A stretch of DNA of 64,000 bases, from NCBI GenBank assembly GCA_001899315.1, contig MOYA01000001.1, forward strand, positions 62,001 through 126,000, given 5' to 3'. The first letter of the stretch is position 1. Each line of letters begins with the position of its first letter. Below the pieces are notes generated by a model. That model ran no database searches. It worked only from the letters and a program-made list of their open reading frames with translations, and was not told where the DNA came from. Positions 7,741 through 61,624 of this stretch are shown here, in pieces. Source of the stretch: Candidatus Obscuribacter phosphatis (GTDB lineage Bacteria > Cyanobacteriota > Vampirovibrionia > Obscuribacterales > Obscuribacteraceae). A program made the position numbers and the translations under genes.

Positions 7741-10700
7741 GTGAATTTTAGGAAGGCTCTAAAAGAGAAGGTTTTGATTTTTGATGGAGCCATGGGTAGC
7801 TCCATTCATACCTTTGATCTGGGCATTGATGACTATCAGGGCTTGGATAACTGTCCTGAGATTTTGGTAGAAAGCTGTCCTGACGTTATCGCTTCTATTC
7901 ATGAGTCTTTCTTGCGGGTCGGTTGTGACTGTGTGGAGACCGATACTTTCGGCGGTTCTCCAGTTGTCTTGGCTGAGTTCGGAATCGCCCACCGGGCCTA
8001 TGAATTGAATAAGAAGGCAGCCTTGTTGGCAAGAGAAGTCGCTTCTTCTTTTGGTGATAAAAAACGTTATGTGTCGGGCTCAATCGGTCCCACTACTAAG
8101 ATTCCCTCCTTGGGGCACATCAGTCTAAGGGCTATGCAGGATGCTTATTTTGAGCAAGTAAGAGGTCTTGTGGACGGTGGTGTAGATGTTTTGCAGTTTG
8201 AGACCGGTCAAGACTTGCTGCAGGCTAAGGCAGCCATACTAGCCATTCTCGATTATTTGAAACAATGCGGCAAGGATATTCCCATTATCACCCAAGTCAC
8301 CCTAGAGGCTCCGCCACTAGGAACAATGCTTGTCGGTTCTGATATATCGGCGGCTTTAGCCACCTTGTCCGCTTTCCCTATAGATGTGATAGGTATCAAT
8401 TGCGCCACCGGTCCATCTGAGATGTATGACCCCTTGCGTTATCTTTGTGAGAATAGCGACCTTGCCGTTTCGGTTCTGCCGAACGCTGGTTTGCCTGAAA
8501 ACATTGATGGGCAAACGGTTTATAAGCTAAGACCGCAAGAGCTTGCCGAACATCTTAAGCAGTTTGCCGCCGTATTTGGTGCAAACATCGTCGGCGGTTG
8601 CTGCGGCACCACCCCCGAACACTTGGCTGAAGTGGTCGCTGCCGTCGATGGTATGGCGCCGCTCAGCCGCAAGCCCGATGTGAGTAGCGCCGTGGCCAGC
8701 ATCTACACCAGCTGTCCCCTGGCTTTTGACAAGTTGAACATGCAGCCGCCTCTGATAGTCGGCGAAAGAACCAATACAAATGGTTCTCGTAAGTTTAAAG
8801 AGCTGCTTGAACTGAGCGACTTAGACGGCATGGTTCGCATGGCTCGCGAACAAGAGAAAGAAGGGGCTCATATCTTAGATGTCTGCACCGCCTATGTCGG
8901 TAGAGACGAAAGCGCCGATATGGAAGCCTTCCTAAAAAGACTAAATACCGAACTCAATATTCCGATCATGGTTGATAGCACCGAATATGGTGTGCTAGAG
9001 AAAGCTTTGCAGCTTATCGCCGGACGAGCCATAGTCAATTCCATAAACTTGGAAGACGGTGAGAGCAAGATGATGGAGAAGGTTAGGCTGATTAGTCGCT
9101 ATGGCGCTGCCGCCGTCGCCTTGACCATAGATGAAGACGGTATGGCAAAAGATGCAGAGAAGAAGCTTGCTGTAGCGAAGCGTATTTATGACCTGGCTCT
9201 CGCCGGCGGCTTAAAGCCTGCAGATCTTGTCTTTGATGCCCTTACTTTTACTTTGAGTACAGGCAATCAAGAAGACCGTAAGCTTGGCCTTGCCACTCTT
9301 GATGGTATCAGATTGATCAAGCAGACTTTGCCCGGCGTGAAGACCATACTTGGTGTAAGCAATATCTCTTTTGGCTTTGATGCCCGCATTCGTCGAATTC
9401 TTAATTCGGTATTTTTGCACTATGCCGTGGAAGCCGGTTTAGATATGGCCATTGTCAATGCCCAGAAAATCTTACCGCTTTATAAAATCGACGAGAACGA
9501 AAGAGAGTTTCATAGACGTCTTGTTTTTGATCTTGCCGACACCGACTATGACCCCCTCTTTAGACTTTTAGAGTTTTACGACAAGAAAGAAAAAACCAGC
9601 AGCAAAGGCAATAGCGAGCTTAATCTCTCTGTGGAAGAGCGCTTGCAGAAGCGGATTATCGACGGCGATCGTGTTGGTCTTGATAGAGATTTAGAGCAGG
9701 CTCTGCTTAAGTACGCTCCTCTCACCATCATCAATACTATTTTGCTGGAAGGTATGAAAGTGGTGGGCGATCTTTTTGGCGCCGGCAAAATGCAATTGCC
9801 GTTTGTCTTGCAGTCGGCCGAAACAATGAAAGCGGCCGTCACTTATCTTGAGCCTCATATGGAGAAGCTGGGCGGCGAGAGTCGCGGCACCATGGTTTTA
9901 GCCACGGTTAAAGGTGATGTGCATGATATCGGTAAGAATTTGGTCGACATCATTCTCACCAATAACGGTTACAGAGTAATCAATCTTGGTATCAAACAGC
10001 CTATAGAGAACATTATCAGTGCTGCCTTAGAGCACAAGGCCGACTGCATAGGCATGAGTGGTCTTTTGGTCAAGTCGACGGTAATTATGAAGGAGAATCT
10101 CGAGATCCTAAACGCTCGGGGTATTACCATTCCTGTGATTTTGGGCGGTGCTGCTCTGACCAGGCGCTATGTAGAAGAAGATTGCCGGCGGGTTTATAAG
10201 GGCAGGCTCTATTATGGGCAAGATGCTTTCGATGACCTGCGCATAATGGAAGCCCTTGCCTCTGGGCAATGGCAAGAGGCCGAGCAAGTTCTTTCTTCTC
10301 GCGCCGAAGCCTGCCTAGACCAAGAATCTGATGGACCTGATGAACCTGATGAAAAATTAGAGATTGTCAGTCCGGCAAAGTCGAGCCAATTAGCAGAATC
10401 GATCCAAATTAAGATCAGGTCGGATGTGGCTCGTATAAGTCCGGCTGAGCCACCGTTTTGGGGGCGTAAAGTAGTAGAGGATTTTGACCTTGCCGAGGTT
10501 TTTTCTTTTATCAATGAAACTTCTTTGATCAAAGGTCAGTATCGAGTTAGGCAGGGCGAACTAAGCGACCATGACTATAGTCTGCTTTTGCAAGAGAAAG
10601 TCTATCCCGCTCTTGATCGCTTGAAAGAGAAGCTCTACAAAGAACGGCACCTGACTCCTCGGGCGGTTTATGGCTATTTCCCTTGTCAAAGCCGGGGCAA

Positions 10701-11250
10701 TGAGCTTTTGGTATTTGAGCCTGATAAGCTCTCAAAGCCCTTTGTCAGCTTCACTTTTCCACGGCAGTCTTTCGGGCGCCGTCTTTGTATTGCCGATTTC
10801 TTTGCTGATGAAAAAGAAGGCTTTGATGTCTTGCCTCTTCAGATTGTCACAATGGGTATGGCGGCAGCTTCTTACGCTGCTGAACTATTTAGTTCGGGCG
10901 AGTATGCCGACTATCTCTATTTTCACGGCTTAGCCGTAGAATCAGCTGAAGGTCTGGCTGAACTGATGCATAAGCGAATCAGGGCTGAACTGGGCTATGC
11001 CGGCGAAGACAGTCCCGACCGCCGTCGCTTCTTTCAACAGGGTTATCGAGGCACTCGCTTTAGTCCGGGTTATCCGGCCTGCCCTGAATTGGAATCACAA
11101 AAGCAGATATTTGCTTTGCTTAGGCCTGAAGAAATAGGCATGGAGTTGAGCGAAGAATATCAATTAGTGCCGGAAGAAAGCACGTCGGCTTTTGTCGTGG
11201 TGCATCCTGAGGCTAAGTACTTCAATATAGTCAGACGGGGAGAGGGGTAA
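7741..11250 (+). CDS. metH: Cobalamin-dependent methionine synthase
   Basis: 1169 residues with all four modules. The homocysteine-binding domain (1-310) has zinc-ligand motifs GINCATGP and GGCCGTTPEH. The pterin-binding domain follows (about 340-610, VGERTNTNGSRKF). The cobalamin domain (640-880) has the cap helix region and the cobalt-ligating motif GDVHDIGKN. The reactivation domain (930-1160) has the AdoMet motif RFSPGYPACP. It transfers methyl from 5-methyl-tetrahydrofolate to homocysteine. The start is GTG 7741 after an aggag site. The next gene begins 3 bp after the stop. A second homocysteine methyltransferase, fused to MTHFR, lies at 21-23 kb, so the window covers two consecutive steps of methyl supply. 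Confidence 0.97.
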   Translation: MNFRKALKEKVLIFDGAMGSSIHTFDLGIDDYQGLDNCPEILVESCPDVIASIHESFLRVGCDCVETDTFGGSPVVLAEFGIAHRAYELNKKAALLAREVASSFGDKKRYVSGSIGPTTKIPSLGHISLRAMQDAYFEQVRGLVDGGVDVLQFETGQDLLQAKAAILAILDYLKQCGKDIPIITQVTLEAPPLGTMLVGSDISAALATLSAFPIDVIGINCATGPSEMYDPLRYLCENSDLAVSVLPNAGLPENIDGQTVYKLRPQELAEHLKQFAAVFGANIVGGCCGTTPEHLAEVVAAVDGMAPLSRKPDVSSAVASIYTSCPLAFDKLNMQPPLIVGERTNTNGSRKFKELLELSDLDGMVRMAREQEKEGAHILDVCTAYVGRDESADMEAFLKRLNTELNIPIMVDSTEYGVLEKALQLIAGRAIVNSINLEDGESKMMEKVRLISRYGAAAVALTIDEDGMAKDAEKKLAVAKRIYDLALAGGLKPADLVFDALTFTLSTGNQEDRKLGLATLDGIRLIKQTLPGVKTILGVSNISFGFDARIRRILNSVFLHYAVEAGLDMAIVNAQKILPLYKIDENEREFHRRLVFDLADTDYDPLFRLLEFYDKKEKTSSKGNSELNLSVEERLQKRIIDGDRVGLDRDLEQALLKYAPLTIINTILLEGMKVVGDLFGAGKMQLPFVLQSAETMKAAVTYLEPHMEKLGGESRGTMVLATVKGDVHDIGKNLVDIILTNNGYRVINLGIKQPIENIISAALEHKADCIGMSGLLVKSTVIMKENLEILNARGITIPVILGGAALTRRYVEEDCRRVYKGRLYYGQDAFDDLRIMEALASGQWQEAEQVLSSRAEACLDQESDGPDEPDEKLEIVSPAKSSQLAESIQIKIRSDVARISPAEPPFWGRKVVEDFDLAEVFSFINETSLIKGQYRVRQGELSDHDYSLLLQEKVYPALDRLKEKLYKERHLTPRAVYGYFPCQSRGNELLVFEPDKLSKPFVSFTFPRQSFGRRLCIADFFADEKEGFDVLPLQIVTMGMAAASYAAELFSSGEYADYLYFHGLAVESAEGLAELMHKRIRAELGYAGEDSPDRRRFFQQGYRGTRFSPGYPACPELESQKQIFALLRPEEIGMELSEEYQLVPEESTSAFVVVHPEAKYFNIVRRGEG

Positions 11251-17156: not shown

Positions 17157-18296
17157 TCACTTTCTTGCACCAGCCAATTTTTTCCTCCATTTCTTGAGCG
17201 CCAAACCACTCAAGCAGGCGGCGGCAGGTAAAAGTCCGATGCCTAGCCAGAAAAACTTACCGGGTGTACCAAGGGCTCTGCCGAAATGCAAACGTGTAAG
17301 CCATGCCGTCACAGTATCAATATCAGTAAAATCAGAACCAATTACTTTTGCCTGTTGGGGAAAAACCCAGACTTCTAAGGGGACGTTCAGTTTGTCGTAA
17401 TAGAAAAACCTGTAGGCCCCAATGTGCTTTTTAGGAAAGGATATTTCTCTCAAAGCAAACTTCTCGCTGTTTCCCGAGGATTGAGAAGAGTCTCTGCCCG
17501 AGTCAATTAGAGCTTGTTCTGCTCGCTTCCTCAGTGAATTTAGATTGTCGAAACTGCCTTTTGGATCGAATTGGTAATGGGGGGCGCAGAACTTTCTGAA
17601 TTCGATAGGAAAGGCAAAGTTGAGGGCGCTTACGGTGAAGAGTAAGATTGGCAGAGTCGCAAGCAGGGCCAGATATTTATGCAAGAGAACTTTGTTCTTA
17701 AATGCAAACTTTATTCTATATAGATGCAACTCTTTCTTTAATGAGTATTGAGGCAGGAGAGTGAGAGCCAGACCTGAAGCCAATAGTAATTGAACGGCGA
17801 GAGCTAGATAACCTTGATATTGTTTACCCGTTTTGCCGAGAGCGAGGTTATGATGCAAATCAGAAATTTTCTCCAGCAGCCAATGTTCTTCTTTCTCTTC
17901 AACAAATGCGCCGGTGCTGCGGTCTAGACCAAGAGCTTTTGAGCCACCTTCTCCAGATATGTGAATATAGATAGGCTTGCCGTGCAAGCCATCAATGTTT
18001 TCTATGAACTTGACCTGGCTAGAGTTATTCGCCGGTTTTACTGCTGCCAAGGCACTTTGACAGAGTTTATCGAGATCGATATCTAAGCTGGTTCTCGATT
18101 CTAGGGCTTTCTTATTTTCAATAAAGCCAATTATTTCGTCTTTCAAGATAAGCGAAGAGCCGCTCAGGCTCATGAATAATAGATAGAGTCCAAGCAGGCT
18201 GCCCAAGACTCTGTGGATGGTCCGCATCGCCTGAGTCTTTCGGCTCTGGCTAGTTGTCTTGTCTTGCATTTTTGCGCTAGCTATGGGGCCGGACAT
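17157..18296 (-). CDS. PepSY-associated TM protein (PiuB-like)
   Basis: 379 residues with four membrane helices: HRVLGSLLGLYLLFMSLSGS (about 26-45), a pair near 165-185 and 205-235, and a last one near 345-365. The large loops between them match the PepSY_TM family. His residues at helix ends (HRVLG, LHHNLALG, LLHKYLALL, RLHFGRALG) are placed like haem ligands in this family, members of which act as inner-membrane reductases in siderophore or haem use. It is the last gene of a three-gene operon; its ATG at 18296 overlaps the MFS gene by 20 bp. Iron release is therefore a sensible guess, not shown. Confidence 0.82.
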   Translation of the reverse strand: MSGPIASAKMQDKTTSQSRKTQAMRTIHRVLGSLLGLYLLFMSLSGSSLILKDEIIGFIENKKALESRTSLDIDLDKLCQSALAAVKPANNSSQVKFIENIDGLHGKPIYIHISGEGGSKALGLDRSTGAFVEEKEEHWLLEKISDLHHNLALGKTGKQYQGYLALAVQLLLASGLALTLLPQYSLKKELHLYRIKFAFKNKVLLHKYLALLATLPILLFTVSALNFAFPIEFRKFCAPHYQFDPKGSFDNLNSLRKRAEQALIDSGRDSSQSSGNSEKFALREISFPKKHIGAYRFFYYDKLNVPLEVWVFPQQAKVIGSDFTDIDTVTAWLTRLHFGRALGTPGKFFWLGIGLLPAAACLSGLALKKWRKKLAGARK

Positions 18297-19662
18297 CTTT
18301 AAAGCGAAACCAGAGAGTCAGATCATAGATACATTTAAGAGCGCCGCCCAAAATGAGGGGCAGCCCGGCAGACATGCTTGATACCGAAAGCCCCGCCACT
18401 AGGGGAGCTAGTCCCTGTGCGAGGGCGCGGGCGCTGGCTGTGAGCGAAGCTGCGTAAGGGCGCTCTTCCGGTTTTACTAAAATCATTGAAAAAGCCTGTC
18501 TGGCTGGAATATCCATGCTTGAGAATAAGCTTCGCACCACCAGTAGTGCGCCAGCCGCACCGGCGCTGGGCATGAAGGGCATGAGGCAGAGGGCGAAACT
18601 GCAAGGTAGGTGTGTGAAGACCATGGTCGACAAAAGTCCGAACCGTTTAGCTAGGTAAGGTGCCATCAAGAACGAGACGGCTCCAAGTAAATTGGTTAGA
18701 CAAAAGATCAGACCGACAAAGTCGGCTTTGCAACCGTATTTGGTGATAAACCAAGCCGAAAGCAGAGATTGCACCACAAAGCCACCACCAAAAGCATCCA
18801 ATGACTGCAAACCAGCAAGCCAGCTTATATGGCGGTTCTTAAGGGCGCTAAAAGTGCATTCGCTTAGACTTGGTTTGGTATTCGCTATCTTCTCAGTGTT
18901 CTGTGTGCTATCTGTATTTTCTGGGTTCTTACTTTTACTGCTTCTGGGCGCTGTCTTCATCTGTGTATAGAGAAGTGAAAGAGTCAGTCCTATTCCAAAA
19001 TACGAAGCGAGAAGAATTCTTGTCGCGCCATCTCCACCGTTTGCCAGGCAGAGCCCGGCTATGAGCGAGCCCAAGGCCGCACCACCGAAGCCGCAGAGAT
19101 TATAGATAGATAGAATGCGTGTCAACTCTTCGGCGTGACTGGTCTCATTTTTTCTGCCTATTTCTTCTGAACTCTCAGCCAATAAAGACTGTTCAAGAGC
19201 GCTGAAAGCTCCACCTTCGAAGCCAGCCGGGCTAATGGTTCCGGCAATAATTGCCAGGGCGATGAGCGCTTTGTTATCAGTGCCGGCTAGAATCAGACCG
19301 CTTAAAGCGAGCAGCAAGCCTGAGAATAGAAGAATATTCTTGGCGCCATATTTAGTGGCGAGTAAAGCCAGTAAGGTGGTAACAATTGCGTCTTCAATTA
19401 AAGTGGCTGAGAGAAGGGCGCCTATCTCAAAATGGCTAAACTGGCAAGCCCTTAGATAAATGGCTAAGATCACTGCGACAGATCCGAAGGCAAAAGTACG
19501 CAGAGCCTTTGCTGAATAGATAATGGCTAGAAGTCTTGTGCGTTTAGTTTTATTTGCTTTCGCAAGGCGCAAGCTTTGCTCAAAGTCGCAATTTATTTCG
19601 CGACCTTCTTTCTCGAGAGAATCAAGTCCGGCATTACCTTTGCTTTTGACTAAGTTGCTCAA
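18277..19662 (-). CDS. MFS transporter
   Basis: 461 residues with about 12 hydrophobic helices. The N-terminal about 35 residues are hydrophilic. The first helix region (AFGSVAVILAIYLRACQFSHFEIGALLSATLIEDAIVT) and the loop after it follow the pattern of the major facilitator superfamily; the central polar loop (about 225-265, Lys/Asn/Thr-rich) splits two six-helix halves. The second half has RQAFSMILVKPEERPYAASLT. The substrate is unknown. It overlaps the upstream ligase gene by 4 bp (ATGA) and the downstream PepSY gene by 20 bp, so all three are coupled. In this setting an exporter of the ligase product is the simplest reading. Confidence 0.85.
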   Translation of the reverse strand: MSNLVKSKGNAGLDSLEKEGREINCDFEQSLRLAKANKTKRTRLLAIIYSAKALRTFAFGSVAVILAIYLRACQFSHFEIGALLSATLIEDAIVTTLLALLATKYGAKNILLFSGLLLALSGLILAGTDNKALIALAIIAGTISPAGFEGGAFSALEQSLLAESSEEIGRKNETSHAEELTRILSIYNLCGFGGAALGSLIAGLCLANGGDGATRILLASYFGIGLTLSLLYTQMKTAPRSSKSKNPENTDSTQNTEKIANTKPSLSECTFSALKNRHISWLAGLQSLDAFGGGFVVQSLLSAWFITKYGCKADFVGLIFCLTNLLGAVSFLMAPYLAKRFGLLSTMVFTHLPCSFALCLMPFMPSAGAAGALLVVRSLFSSMDIPARQAFSMILVKPEERPYAASLTASARALAQGLAPLVAGLSVSSMSAGLPLILGGALKCIYDLTLWFRFKDVRPHS

Positions 19663-20870
19663 GCAGTAACCTTTAGCCTCTCCTCTTGCGGTTTGCCACT
19701 CTCAACATTAGCAGGCTCAGTATGAGCAGTCTCATCTTTGAGTATTTCACTTGCTTCCCTCAGCAAGATGGCTTTTTCAATAGACCCCTCCAGTCTCGCC
19801 CGCAACAAAAGGTCGTGAACCGGTAGATGATTTTCTAGAACGCGCTTTTCGAGAACCTTTAGCTCTTGCTCTAAGGAAGACCTATCTATGTAGAAATAGT
19901 TGTCTAGACCTTGGTCTGTGGCAACCATTTCAATTACTCTACCAACCAGGTCTCTATCTGCCTGCTGGTTTGGTCCAGTCAGTGCCAGTCTCTGCAGATT
20001 GGCCCGGGCTTCACTGTCGCCGCATCTGCCCGGCAGATTCTCATTTGTCAGAACTGTCAGAGCTACCATAAATAGAGCCTGATAAATTTGCGTGCCGGGC
20101 GCCATTTCAAAACCCTTGAACTCAAAACGCAACTGACTCTGTTCCTCGTCTGGCCTGTCTCGATGAATATAATAAAGCGGAGCCCAAAGGGATCTTCTTT
20201 GGGTGCGCACCGAACAGATGGTTTGCCCTAACTGGCTTCTAGCCTCTTCTCCGCGCAGAAAGGGTGAGTTAAAAGTCAAAGCGAAGAAAGCAGGCATATA
20301 AAAATTGATCTTGTCGTTCAAGTCGGCAAGGTCTAACTTTCTAGTAATTTCAGCCGGCAGACTAATGTTGAAGTCTGGTCCATAGGTTGCAGTGGCTACC
20401 CGTGCCCAGTTCCAATAATCTTCTCTTTCATAGTTGCGCGGGGCATCAAAATCCGAGGCTCTAGGATGATGTCCTATACTCGCCGTCATCAAAGCTTCCT
20501 TCTTAAGCCTTTCATCTAGGCGCGTTCTCAAAATATTTAGTTCTTTAATTGCCGCTTGTGGAGAGCCGCAAATCGAAGTCCTGGCTTCAATTCCCTTTGG
20601 CAGTAGGTGCAAAGGTGTAGAAAAATCAGGTGACGTAAGGGTGTAACCCTCAATCAGATAATGTCCACGCTTACGATGTAAAGGCTTCTGATTCAAGCCC
20701 TGTAAACTCAGATCGGTTGTGTCTATTGAATCTACAGTCATTAGCAGATTACCCAATTCTAGGTCATTGATCCAGAGCGACTTTAGATCATTCTGCCGAA
20801 TCAACAGATATTCAGTTTCAATGCCAAAGCCGAAGCCTGAATCGTCTTGCTTCAAGGATACCTCTATCAT
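19659..20870 (-). CDS. GCS2-type carboxylate-amine ligase (glutamate-cysteine ligase family)
   Basis: 403 residues. The family signature is visible in order: GFGIETEYLL (residues 14-23, matching the G-x-E-x-E-x of GCS2/YbdK), the second acidic strand KGIEARTSI, MTASIGHHPRASDF (equivalent to the xxGTHP segment), ALTFNSPFLRGEEA (equivalent to LSANSPFW.G), and QLRFEFKGFEM for the late acidic strand. These enzymes join an amino acid or amine to a gamma-carboxylate using ATP. The family's central G-x-H-x-H motif is replaced by YGPDFNISLP, so the substrate may differ from classic glutamate-cysteine ligase. It is first in an operon with an MFS transporter and a PepSY-TM protein. Confidence 0.72.
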   Translation of the reverse strand: MIEVSLKQDDSGFGFGIETEYLLIRQNDLKSLWINDLELGNLLMTVDSIDTTDLSLQGLNQKPLHRKRGHYLIEGYTLTSPDFSTPLHLLPKGIEARTSICGSPQAAIKELNILRTRLDERLKKEALMTASIGHHPRASDFDAPRNYEREDYWNWARVATATYGPDFNISLPAEITRKLDLADLNDKINFYMPAFFALTFNSPFLRGEEARSQLGQTICSVRTQRRSLWAPLYYIHRDRPDEEQSQLRFEFKGFEMAPGTQIYQALFMVALTVLTNENLPGRCGDSEARANLQRLALTGPNQQADRDLVGRVIEMVATDQGLDNYFYIDRSSLEQELKVLEKRVLENHLPVHDLLLRARLEGSIEKAILLREASEILKDETAHTEPANVESGKPQEERLKVTA

Positions 20871-21057
20871 TTTTCTGATTTTGTTCTAGTAGGACCTTAA
20901 GAAAGGATAGCATTGTCGAAAGCTTGTTGAGAATAATTCTTATCTAGAAGCTGCTCTTATTGATTTTCAGAAAAACGCAGAAATTTCTGAATATCTACAA
21001 AGCATTACCAGAAAAGCATCTTCAGTCTCACTTTGCGATCTCTTGGCAGCCTGCTGG

Positions 21058-23034
21058 TTAGTTAGAGCTTGCAATTGTTCTCGATCTCTTCAGCCTCGTG
21101 ACAAGCGCTGCCATGTCATCGTATCTGCCGAAAGACGGGACCAAGTAAGTCCCTTCAATCAATTCGGTTACTTCGGCGAGGAGCGCCTCGGCCTGCTCAA
21201 GTCCAACACGGGCCCCGTCATCTCCGGCTCTAGCCATTTCTTCTCGAATATGCTTGGGAATAGTAATTCCAGGCACCTCGTTATGCAAATACTCTGCGTG
21301 TTTTGAACTATGCAAAGGCATAATCCCTACTAATAGAGGAACAGGGCAGCCGCCCATATCTTCGATGAAGTCAGCAAGATCACTCTTGCGGTAGATCGGT
21401 TGGGTCATGATAAAGTCGGCGCCGGCCTCGATCTTTCTTTTGATGCGCTCTAATTCGAGGGCACGATTTTGCGCCGTCGGGTTCAAAGCACAACCAATAG
21501 AGAGTGAAAGGGGGGCGCCTATGGTATTACCGGCGATATCTTGCCCTTGATTCAGTTGTTTGATTATTTTGATTAGACCAATTGAATCGACATCGTAGAC
21601 CGCAGTGGCATGAGCGTAGTTGCCCAAGGCGGGCGGGTCGCCGGTCAGGGCGAGGATATTGTGCAGACCTAAGGCCTGGCAGCCAATAAGGTCTGCCTGC
21701 ATACCCATCAGGTTGCGATCTCTGGTGGTGAAATGAATTATGGTATCGACACCGATGCGCTGGCTGAGAAGTTGGCAGGTGGCTAGCGAGGACATTCTTA
21801 CCCTCGCCATCGGGCTGTCGCCCACATTGATGGCGTCTGCCCCTGCCGCATAGAGCAGCTCCGCCGCTTGGGTAATTTTCTTGGTTCCGGCCCCCTTGGG
21901 TGGGTCCAGTTCGACAGAGATATAAAAGTCCTGCTCCGTTTTTTGTTTGATTCGACGCAAGCGCTCAGCCAGCGAAATTTTTGCATTTTCTTTCTGGCTT
22001 GCCGTCTCGACGGTGTTTTCGATTGCTTCGGGATTGTAGAGCACTGTCACGAGCGAGCCGACGCCTTTTGTCTCGGCTGTTTCTTTGCTCTCGTCCTTGC
22101 TTGAGTGCTCTTCGTTCTGCGCTATGTATTGGTCGAGAGCTTGCCTCATGGCTTTGATATGCTCTGGAGTGGTGCCGCAGCAACCGCCCACAATTCTAGC
22201 CCCGGCTCTCAGGTAAGGCTCGATGTAAGATGCGCAATATTTGGGTTTGCTCATGAACATCGGGCGTCCACCCATCAAGCTCGGTTGACCGGCATTGGGC
22301 AGGCAGGAAAAGGTGAGGCGATTGGGCGCAATTTTCAAGCTTTTGATGGCAGTTGTTAAGCGCAGAAATGAATCGAAGACAGGTCCCGGACCCGCACCGC
22401 AGTTGATACCAATTACATCGGGCATGTCATCCCCGAGTTCTTGCAAAAGTTTGACTATGTCTTCCGGCACTGCCCCGAGCAAGGTATGTCCTTCCACCGA
22501 GAAAGAAAGTTGAGCAATCACAGGCAGTTTGGAAACGTTGCGGGCGGCTTTCACAGCTAGGGCGGTTTCTTCCAGGCTGGACATAGTTTCAATAAGAAAG
22601 AGGTCGACGCCTCCGGCTAAAAGGGCTTCCATTTGCTCTTTGAAAGCATCGCAAATAGAGTCTCGGTCTGTGTCGCCGAGGGGTGGCAATAATTTGCCGG
22701 TCGGTCCCACCGAACCGGCCACGAAAACCGGTTGCCCGGTAATCTCTCTGGCGTTGCGGGCTACTTTGGCTGACCAGACATTGATTTTCCAGACCTCGGC
22801 ATCAAGTCCATGATTAGCCAGTTTAAATCTGTTTCCACTAAATGAGTTGGTTTCTATAATCTCCGCGCCGGCGTTGATATAGTCCACGTGGACTTGCTGC
22901 ACGGTCTCTTGCCTGGTCAGATTAAGGTGTTCGAAGCTGGCTTCTCCCGAAGTGCCTCTTGAATACAGGAGCGTCCCTATGCCCCCGTCAGCCAGGAGTG
23001 GGCGTTTGGCCAGGGTTTCGAGAAACGGGTGCAT
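21058..23034 (-). CDS. Bifunctional homocysteine S-methyltransferase / 5,10-methylenetetrahydrofolate reductase
   Basis: 658 residues, a YitJ-like fusion. The N-terminal half (1-310) is a zinc-dependent homocysteine methyltransferase: DGGIGTLLYSRG, TNSFSGNR, VIGINCGAGP and GGCCGTTPEHI carry the zinc Cys ligands. A polar linker (about 310-365) leads to a FAD-dependent MTHFR (366-658): VELDPPKG, HFTTRDRNL, HNILALTGDPP, DFIMTQPIY and VGIMPL. It would make 5-methyl-THF and methylate homocysteine. The MTHFR half also feeds MetH at 7.7 kb. The start is ATG 23034; lepA is divergent 201 bp away. Confidence 0.95.
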   Translation of the reverse strand: MHPFLETLAKRPLLADGGIGTLLYSRGTSGEASFEHLNLTRQETVQQVHVDYINAGAEIIETNSFSGNRFKLANHGLDAEVWKINVWSAKVARNAREITGQPVFVAGSVGPTGKLLPPLGDTDRDSICDAFKEQMEALLAGGVDLFLIETMSSLEETALAVKAARNVSKLPVIAQLSFSVEGHTLLGAVPEDIVKLLQELGDDMPDVIGINCGAGPGPVFDSFLRLTTAIKSLKIAPNRLTFSCLPNAGQPSLMGGRPMFMSKPKYCASYIEPYLRAGARIVGGCCGTTPEHIKAMRQALDQYIAQNEEHSSKDESKETAETKGVGSLVTVLYNPEAIENTVETASQKENAKISLAERLRRIKQKTEQDFYISVELDPPKGAGTKKITQAAELLYAAGADAINVGDSPMARVRMSSLATCQLLSQRIGVDTIIHFTTRDRNLMGMQADLIGCQALGLHNILALTGDPPALGNYAHATAVYDVDSIGLIKIIKQLNQGQDIAGNTIGAPLSLSIGCALNPTAQNRALELERIKRKIEAGADFIMTQPIYRKSDLADFIEDMGGCPVPLLVGIMPLHSSKHAEYLHNEVPGITIPKHIREEMARAGDDGARVGLEQAEALLAEVTELIEGTYLVPSFGRYDDMAALVTRLKRSRTIASSN

Positions 23035-59968: not shown

Positions 59969-61624
59969 ATGCGCATTGCTTATTTCGACTGTTCTTTTGG
60001 CGCAAGCGGAGACATGCTCTTGGGCGCTTGTCTGGATGCCGGCGAAGCTCTTGGTTTTGGTTTGAAGGAGCTGACAGCCCAGCTTGAACTTTTGGGTTTG
60101 CCACCGGCAGAGTTCAGTCTTTCGCTTGAGAAAGTGCATCGTGCCGGTATTTTTGCCAGTCACCTCAATGTCCATTTGCAAGAGAATGTATTTTCTGCTG
60201 ATTCAAAAGCTTCGGACCCAAGACGTGCAGTCTCTCATTCGCATGAACATGGACACGGGCACGGACACGGACATGAACATGAACACGGGCATGGGCATGG
60301 ACACGAGCACGGGCATGAACATGAGCACGGACACGGGCATGAACATGGACACGAGCACGGGCATGAACATGGACACGGGCACGGACACGGACATGAACAT
60401 GAACACGAGCACGGGCATGGGCATCAACATGAACACGAGCACGGGCATGGGCATCAACATGAACACTCACATGAACACTCACATGAACACTCACATGAAC
60501 ACGGGCACGGGCATGAACACTCACATGAACACGGGCACGAGCATGAGCACGAACATGAACATGAACATGAGCACGAACATGAACATGAGCACGGACGTCG
60601 TCTCTCTGATATCTTGGCTTTGATTGAGAATTCGAAGCTGGCAGATGCGGTGAAGGCTCTGGCTACTAGAATTTTTGTCAACCTCGGAGAGTCCGAGAGC
60701 AAAGTGCATGGGGTGCCAATCCAGTCCATTCATTTTCATGAAGTTGGTGCCACTGATTCGATAGTTGACATTGTTGGTTTTGCCATAGCCTTTCACTCTT
60801 TGGGTATCGAGAGAGCGATTGTTTCGCCCCTGCCCTTGGGCAGCGGCGTGATCAAGTCTGCCCATGGTATCTATCCTGTGCCCGGACCGGCTACTCTGAA
60901 CTTGATTATGAGTGCCGGCGCCCCCACGCGTGACTATCCCAACGGCTATGAATGCTTGACGCCGACAGGGGCTGCCATTCTCACTACTATAGCCGAGCGC
61001 TACTCAGGACCACCGGCGTTTGAAAGAGTGCTTGGTACTGGATATGGTGCTGGAACTTATGCTCCTGAAGCGCATCCTAATGTGGTTAGGCTTATCGTGG
61101 GCAATGCGCTACCGCCGTCTCATCCACAAGTCGGCATTTCGAGCGGTGAGCGTGCTTCTTTTCGCTCAGAAATTATTTGCTGCCTAGAGACAAATATTGA
61201 TGATTGCAGTCCGCAGATACTTGCTTTCGCTGCCGAGAAACTGCTCGAGTCCGGCGCCCTGGATGTCTCTCTTTCGCCTTGTCAGATGAAGAAGGGGCGT
61301 TCCGGGCACTTCTTGAAGGTACTGGCTCGTCCTGAAGATGTCTATCACCTTTCAGATATTTTGCTGTCTGAAACTACTGCCATTGGTGTGCGCACTTACT
61401 ATACCGAGAGGCTGGCGGCAGACCGCGACTTTATCAACGTCAATCTTTTGGGGCAGGAAGTTAGAGTAAAGGCTTCGTATCGTCTAGATGGTAGTCTCAT
61501 CAACCTTCAACCAGAATATTCAGACTGTGTTTCTTTAGCAGAGCGTTCTGGACTGCCTCTCAAGCAAATCATGCAAGATTGCCTCGAGACCGCTATGGCT
61601 AACTTTAAGACTAAATCAAATTAG
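59969..61624 (+). CDS. larC: Nickel-pincer cofactor biosynthesis protein LarC with a giant His-rich insert
   Basis: 551 residues. LarC signatures: YFDCSFGASGDMLLGACLDAG at the start, IVSPLPLGSGVIKSAHGIYPVPGPATL, YECLTPTGAAILT, GTGYGAGT, LETNIDDCSPQ, CQMKKGRSG and ETTAIGVR at the end. LarC inserts nickel into the pyridinium pincer nucleotide of lactate racemase and related enzymes, using CTP. The two halves are one frame here, without the frameshift seen in Lactobacillus. Residues 89-208 are a run of about 60 consecutive X-His pairs, a probable nickel store. No larA/B/E is visible. The start ATG 59969 is 6 bp after the upstream stop. Confidence 0.95.
   Translation: MRIAYFDCSFGASGDMLLGACLDAGEALGFGLKELTAQLELLGLPPAEFSLSLEKVHRAGIFASHLNVHLQENVFSADSKASDPRRAVSHSHEHGHGHGHGHEHEHGHGHGHEHGHEHEHGHGHEHGHEHGHEHGHGHGHGHEHEHEHGHGHQHEHEHGHGHQHEHSHEHSHEHSHEHGHGHEHSHEHGHEHEHEHEHEHEHEHEHEHGRRLSDILALIENSKLADAVKALATRIFVNLGESESKVHGVPIQSIHFHEVGATDSIVDIVGFAIAFHSLGIERAIVSPLPLGSGVIKSAHGIYPVPGPATLNLIMSAGAPTRDYPNGYECLTPTGAAILTTIAERYSGPPAFERVLGTGYGAGTYAPEAHPNVVRLIVGNALPPSHPQVGISSGERASFRSEIICCLETNIDDCSPQILAFAAEKLLESGALDVSLSPCQMKKGRSGHFLKVLARPEDVYHLSDILLSETTAIGVRTYYTERLAADRDFINVNLLGQEVRVKASYRLDGSLINLQPEYSDCVSLAERSGLPLKQIMQDCLETAMANFKTKSN
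60233..60592 (+). repeat. 360-bp low-complexity tract coding about 60 X-His pairs
   Basis: The DNA is built from shifting copies of 6-bp units such as catgaa/cacggg/cacgga, with longer near-repeats (for example gggcatgaacatggacacgagcac appearing again 30-50 bp later). It codes for an uninterrupted X-His series with X = Gly, Glu, Ser or Gln. The period keeps the frame, so slippage would change only the number of His. Confidence 0.97.

Follow-up and report, generated by a model that had tools for sequence, protein, structure and literature searches.

Operon architecture

The system described here is a candidate iron-starvation operon on the minus strand, at positions 17157-20870, of a 64-kb stretch of DNA (the window) from Candidatus Obscuribacter phosphatis, which belongs to a group of non-photosynthetic relatives of cyanobacteria. 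Three open reading frames (ORFs) encode, in order, a carboxylate-amine ligase, a major facilitator superfamily (MFS) transporter and a PepSY-TM protein, and a candidate Fur-box-like palindrome lies upstream (Table 1). The ligase and MFS genes overlap by 4 bp and the MFS and PepSY genes by 20 bp, coordinates and overlaps being exactly those of an earlier note on this DNA. With Pfam, the MFS protein matches MFS_1 at 84.4 bits (cut-off 33.4) and the third protein matches PepSY_TM at 96.4 bits (cut-off 28.8). The MFS profile had no match in the PDB, and scans for sigma-70 promoters and terminators gave no excess over shuffled sequences.

Table 1. Coordinates of the operon genes and the upstream palindrome in the window
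Feature	Position	Strand	Basis
Candidate Fur-box-like 7-1-7 palindrome, TAAGAAT-T-ATTCTCA (read on the minus strand)	20928-20942		Palindrome scan; recurrence 5' of orthologues
GCS2-superfamily (YbdK-like) carboxylate-amine ligase, 403 aa, invariant GPDxNxS	19659-20870	minus	ORF, profile, fold
MFS transporter, probable exporter, 461 aa, TTG start	18277-19662	minus	ORF, Pfam, conserved adjacency
PepSY-TM protein, 379 aa, FoxB/PiuB-like four-helix putative di-haem metal reductase	17157-18296	minus	ORF, Pfam, fold

Conservation of the gene order

The survey covered 53 Obscuribacterales genomes, 17 of which carry the ligase. The MFS gene is directly downstream of it in 14/16 assessable genomes; the two exceptions both belong to the genus g24, and for one of them, G052, the readable sequence downstream was limited to about 1.4 kb. 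In nine of 13 assessable genomes PepSY comes third, a count that includes G045, where the junction was read as the 3' end of the MFS gene together with PepSY on a separate contig. The homologues are thus neighbours elsewhere, as the operon proposed in the earlier note would predict, and the cassette is more than a product of chance, since other genera have the three genes in the same order. Because the orthologues are only about 40% identical and their flanks differ (the exception being one same-genus relative, at 78%), selection, and not descent alone, seems to have kept the order. Between the three proteins, pairwise distances are correlated (r 0.86 to 0.97), as would fit their being inherited together, although a common phylogeny can by itself yield such a correlation. 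PepSY_TM proteins co-occur with the ligase in 11/17 genomes, as against 5/36 of the remainder (p=3.4e-4, an optimistic value given that the genomes are related).

Outside the order, a genome of a far class carries a string of mini-PepSY, ligase, FetB-like and FetA-like genes with overlapping starts and stops, and in a second far-class genome a mini-PepSY gene is directly upstream of the ligase. This arrangement is independent and shows the same association of ligase, PepSY and iron.

No other conserved biosynthetic genes were found in the flanks of the cassette, which hold tetratricopeptide repeat proteins, an alpha/beta hydrolase, a Mg-chelatase-family protein and a class II tRNA synthetase, with a second MFS gene in one genus. 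In three genera in which PepSY does not adjoin the MFS gene, a small related gene is convergent to the MFS gene (L025 12393-12917, L021 12605-13132 and L135 6976-7533), the first of these being a cytochrome c by Pfam. A homocysteine methyltransferase-methylenetetrahydrofolate reductase fusion (Pfam; 21058-23034) lies 5' of the operon in the same orientation, and is its neighbour within the genus only; a MetH-like gene (Pfam) is found at 7741-11250 in the same window.

The PepSY-TM protein

Among solved structures, FoxB (7ABW) is the sole significant relative of the PepSY profile (E=1.6e-17), and a Foldseek search with the model returned 7ABW at 3.3e-10, the next match being above 1. The protein has a PepSY_TM domain, four transmembrane helices and the FoxB fold. 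The four-helix topology with histidines at helix ends, described in the earlier note, was recovered as four hydrophobic segments with His28, His148, His206 and His337 at their ends; all four are invariant, align with FoxB histidines and, placed two per membrane face, are putative haem ligands. Sequence profile, fold, transmembrane segments and the four conserved histidines are all shared with the ferrisiderophore reductases FoxB, FpvG and HiuB, whereas the gene in the window is joined by overlap to a ligase-MFS pair and not to a TonB-dependent receptor. Reduction of a ferric chelate is the putative function. In G049, a genome without the ligase gene, genes for a PepSY-TM protein and a flavodoxin are in divergent orientation (L158 3632-5628).

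The upstream palindrome and predicted iron control

The palindrome is separated from the ligase ATG by 57 bases and is the only site in the window scoring 12/14 or better; its 7-1-7 form is a known type of Fur site (PMC11353095). In the host genome (5.49 Mb), TRAKAATNATTMTYA, a degenerate form of the palindrome, is matched exactly at three sites, one of them 5' of the ligase and another preceding a flavodoxin gene, and with up to one mismatch allowed there are 19 sites as against five for the reversed control. The strict palindrome occurs in 12/53 genomes of the order, the control giving a single match. Its neighbours include flavodoxin (in the host and a sister genome), a 4Fe-4S ferredoxin (two genomes), this cassette (two genomes) and PF01475 (Fur-family) regulators (three genomes, at distances reaching several hundred bases), together with a cytochrome-type nitric oxide reductase and a NicO transporter. 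The replacement of ferredoxin by flavodoxin under iron starvation is established cyanobacterial physiology. Best-site scores 5' of 15 ligase orthologues sum to 173, compared with a shuffled mean of 130.4 (standard deviation 2.9, maximum 140), and ten of these loci are individually significant at p<0.03. At 14 photosynthetic or far-class loci there was no excess of boxes, with a summed score of 125 versus a shuffled mean of 122.2. The host also encodes FeoB, with an 11/14 site 39 bases 5' of its ORF.

Across the order, the neighbourhood of the palindrome fits the profile of a Fur box. Regulation of the operon by iron is well supported and considered highly probable, with repression by a Fur-family regulator bound at the palindrome the most likely form of control. 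The connection with iron that the earlier note had drawn is strengthened accordingly, by the Fur-box-like sites upstream of 20870 and of the orthologues, by the FoxB similarity and by the predicted regulon of flavodoxin, Fur-family and ferredoxin genes. A distinctly unlikely alternative is that the PepSY-TM protein and a chelator serve copper or some other metal, as has been proposed for CrpH, and that the palindrome is read by another Fur-family regulator such as Zur or PerR. As CrpH shows, iron is not necessarily the metal that a PepSY-TM protein serves (PMC13038864); there are six Fur-family genes in the host, and some PepSY paralogues in the order adjoin respiratory-type genes. Nevertheless, flavodoxin and ferredoxin, which also neighbour the palindrome, are genes of iron status, and FetAB-like iron-efflux genes adjoin the far ligase homologue.

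Two further arrangements of such palindromes were noted. In the host, a pair 175 bp apart (C1:1160005 and 1160180; L046 5006-5195) adjoins TadE-like genes and a gene whose 235-aa product has no match in Pfam, with no recognisable iron gene. In G026 (L164 2715-3948), a short Fur-family gene is directly upstream of the ligase, and two palindromes lie upstream of the two preceding ORFs.

The ligase: fold, motif and relatives

The window ligase scores 15.4 bits against the Pfam GCS2 model, below the cut-off of 21, and its match to an NCBIfam carboxylate-amine ligase (E=3e-8) is far below the cut-off of that model; eleven of its orthologues do pass the GCS2 cut-off. Given the weak GCS2 score, the assignment needed further support, and since searches of the PDB by sequence alone gave nothing significant, the comparison was made by fold. 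The AlphaFold model, derived from 11 members of the family, has a mean predicted local distance difference test score of 75.6 and a low-confidence loop at 134-152. Foldseek matched it with probability 1.00 to YbdK (1r8g, E=9e-9), plant glutamate-cysteine ligase (2gwc, E=3.7e-9) and PafA, at moderate TM-scores of about 0.4-0.6, and also to Dop, GshA and glutamine synthetases. The predicted structure is therefore that of the glutamate-cysteine-ligase fold, but the substrate pocket cannot be assigned from the model, because of the low-confidence loop and the moderate TM-scores. Structure prediction, proposed in the earlier note for the ligase and its substrate pocket, supplied the fold only; the ligase belongs to no known non-biosynthetic family.

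The central G-x-H-x-H motif of the GCS2 superfamily is replaced by GPDxNxS, present in the window ligase as YGPDFNISLP, the sequence that the earlier note had pointed out. Its G, P, D, N and S do not vary even among distant homologues, from Obscuribacterales and another class of the phylum to photosynthetic cyanobacteria and a plasmid gene of Serratia symbiotica. It follows that the ligase represents a distinct subfamily of the fold and that the motif is no peculiarity of the operon; it marks the whole subfamily, including orphan genes of photosynthetic cyanobacteria. In an alignment of low statistical support with E. coli GshA, the motif resembles S-G-V-H-Y-N-F-S-L-P with Asp replacing His, Asp166 standing opposite the His and Asn168 opposite the Asn of GVHYNFS. 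YbdK aligned to the ligase over 163 columns (E=5.7e-5). With YbdK and GshA the window ligase shares the fold, an N-terminal G-x-E-x-E motif and an E-x-R/A-T element; it differs in the invariant G-P-D-x-N-x-S and in a C-terminal R-x-E-x-K element, and identity in structural alignments is 11-14%. Further relatives are the orphan GCS-like genes of photosynthetic cyanobacteria, uncharacterised and found here, whose products are full-length homologues with the same motif and 22-25% identity to the window ligase, although none has an MFS or PepSY neighbour in the 12 loci read or a palindrome upstream. Searches of plasmids for the ligase gave only one far homologue, the Serratia symbiotica gene (L030 9980-11077), which is carried on a conjugative plasmid of this aphid symbiont, lies alone within its pil region and has apparently been transferred.

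A glutathione role for the ligase was rejected on genome content. The host has no GCS2 match above the cut-off, and its only candidate glutathione synthetase is a 28-bit ATP-grasp match; true matches (138 bits or more) are confined to five other genomes. In the few genomes with a convincing glutathione synthetase and a canonical GCS2 enzyme, these enzymes have loci of their own, and the cassette is present as well in two of those genomes (G016 and G018). Because GPDxNxS is family-wide and the host lacks a convincing glutathione synthetase, the ligase is not a glutathione enzyme. The broader idea that its product is a low-molecular-weight thiol such as gamma-glutamylcysteine, serving redox balance and exported by the MFS protein, can appeal to the presence of GshA in the superfamily and to the GshA motif opposite GPDxNxS. 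It is considered very improbable, however: besides the genome content above, neither Fur-box-like control nor a FoxB-like partner points to thiol homeostasis.

A possible iron-starvation operon with a one-enzyme chelator

The best reading of the locus, given slightly better than an even chance, is an iron-starvation operon by which a chelator is made, exported and reductively recovered. A Fur-family regulator at the palindrome would repress the operon and iron starvation would relieve this repression. The ligase, as the only enzyme of the cassette, would join a carboxylate to an amine in an ATP-dependent reaction, turning common metabolites into a small metal chelator in a single step, and the MFS protein would export it. 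The ferric complex would then re-enter the periplasm, where Fe(III) may be reduced by the PepSY-TM protein with electrons relayed along two bis-His haems, and the resulting Fe(II) could enter by FeoB. Counted in favour of this scheme are the gene order, the box, the FoxB match, FeoB, the far-class string with FetAB-like genes, the divergent pair in G049 and the absence of an IucA/IucC synthetase from all 53 genomes of the order. The joining of common metabolites, export and reduction on return are proposed by analogy with the closest system known to work, rhizoferrin in Ralstonia pickettii, for which a single synthetase and an adjacent MFS exporter suffice (PMC7857480). In that cluster, too, one amide-forming synthetase is followed directly by an MFS exporter with no further biosynthetic gene (PMC7857480); its enzyme, however, is an NRPS-independent siderophore (NIS) synthetase of the IucA/IucC type (NRPS, nonribosomal peptide synthetase), whereas the window has a GCS2-fold ligase and, in addition, a PepSY reductase.

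Several observations weigh against this iron-starvation reading. Four of the 13 assessable genomes lack an adjacent PepSY gene, two having it elsewhere and two having none, and five of the 15 orthologue loci have no significant box. Sites of the 7-1-7 form are common also to Zur and PerR. The operon has no dedicated TonB-dependent receptor linked to it, and a single weak, unlinked Plug match below the cut-off is all that the host shows, so that passage through porins, a receptor that escaped recognition or a role in the periplasm has to be allowed. The substrate cannot be read from sequence, and export by the MFS protein is a prediction.

A rival reading is that this iron-starvation operon scavenges compounds of other organisms rather than making a chelator, with the MFS protein importing a small ferric chelate or the apo-compound, the PepSY-TM protein reducing ferric chelates in the periplasm and the ligase conjugating or disarming the imported acid. 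Such a scheme shares the regulatory and FoxB evidence, the MFS direction is not fixed by sequence, FoxB-type reductases often serve xenosiderophores (PMC13001220; PMC10866019), and that no receptor was found would fit a small, porin-permeable compound. It is nonetheless regarded as unlikely, although less so than a role in thiol or other-metal metabolism; the ligase and MFS genes are the tightest pair (14/16) and PepSY is dispensable, which fits making and exporting a compound better than taking one up. The proposal in the earlier note of synthesis, export and reductive reuse is supported as regards the gene set, its conserved order and the link with iron; the gamma bond, the thiol product and the direction of export do not follow from the analysis.

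A more specific and tentative suggestion, held to be possible but somewhat doubtful, is that the ligase is the first enzyme of the glutamate-cysteine-ligase fold to make a siderophore or metallophore, acting in a single step, and that the cyanobacterial orphans perform a related ligation. A search of open-licence papers for a GCS-type siderophore ligase or for siderophores of Melainabacteria found no such system; as far as this literature shows the gene combination is new, although each part is of a known superfamily. If correct, the proposal would extend siderophore making beyond NRPS and NIS enzymes to a further fold, in a lineage that is uncultured and lacks NIS synthetases, hint at how Obscuribacterales compete for iron, and give a functional context to a conserved, uncharacterised ligase family of photosynthetic cyanobacteria. 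The three-gene unit is compact and testable in E. coli.

Another observation in the window

On the plus strand, at 59969-61624, is a gene for a 551-aa LarC-like protein, recognised by eye, with a low-complexity insert rich in His, Glu and Gly and well over 100 residues long, the composition of which suggests storage of nickel or another metal.

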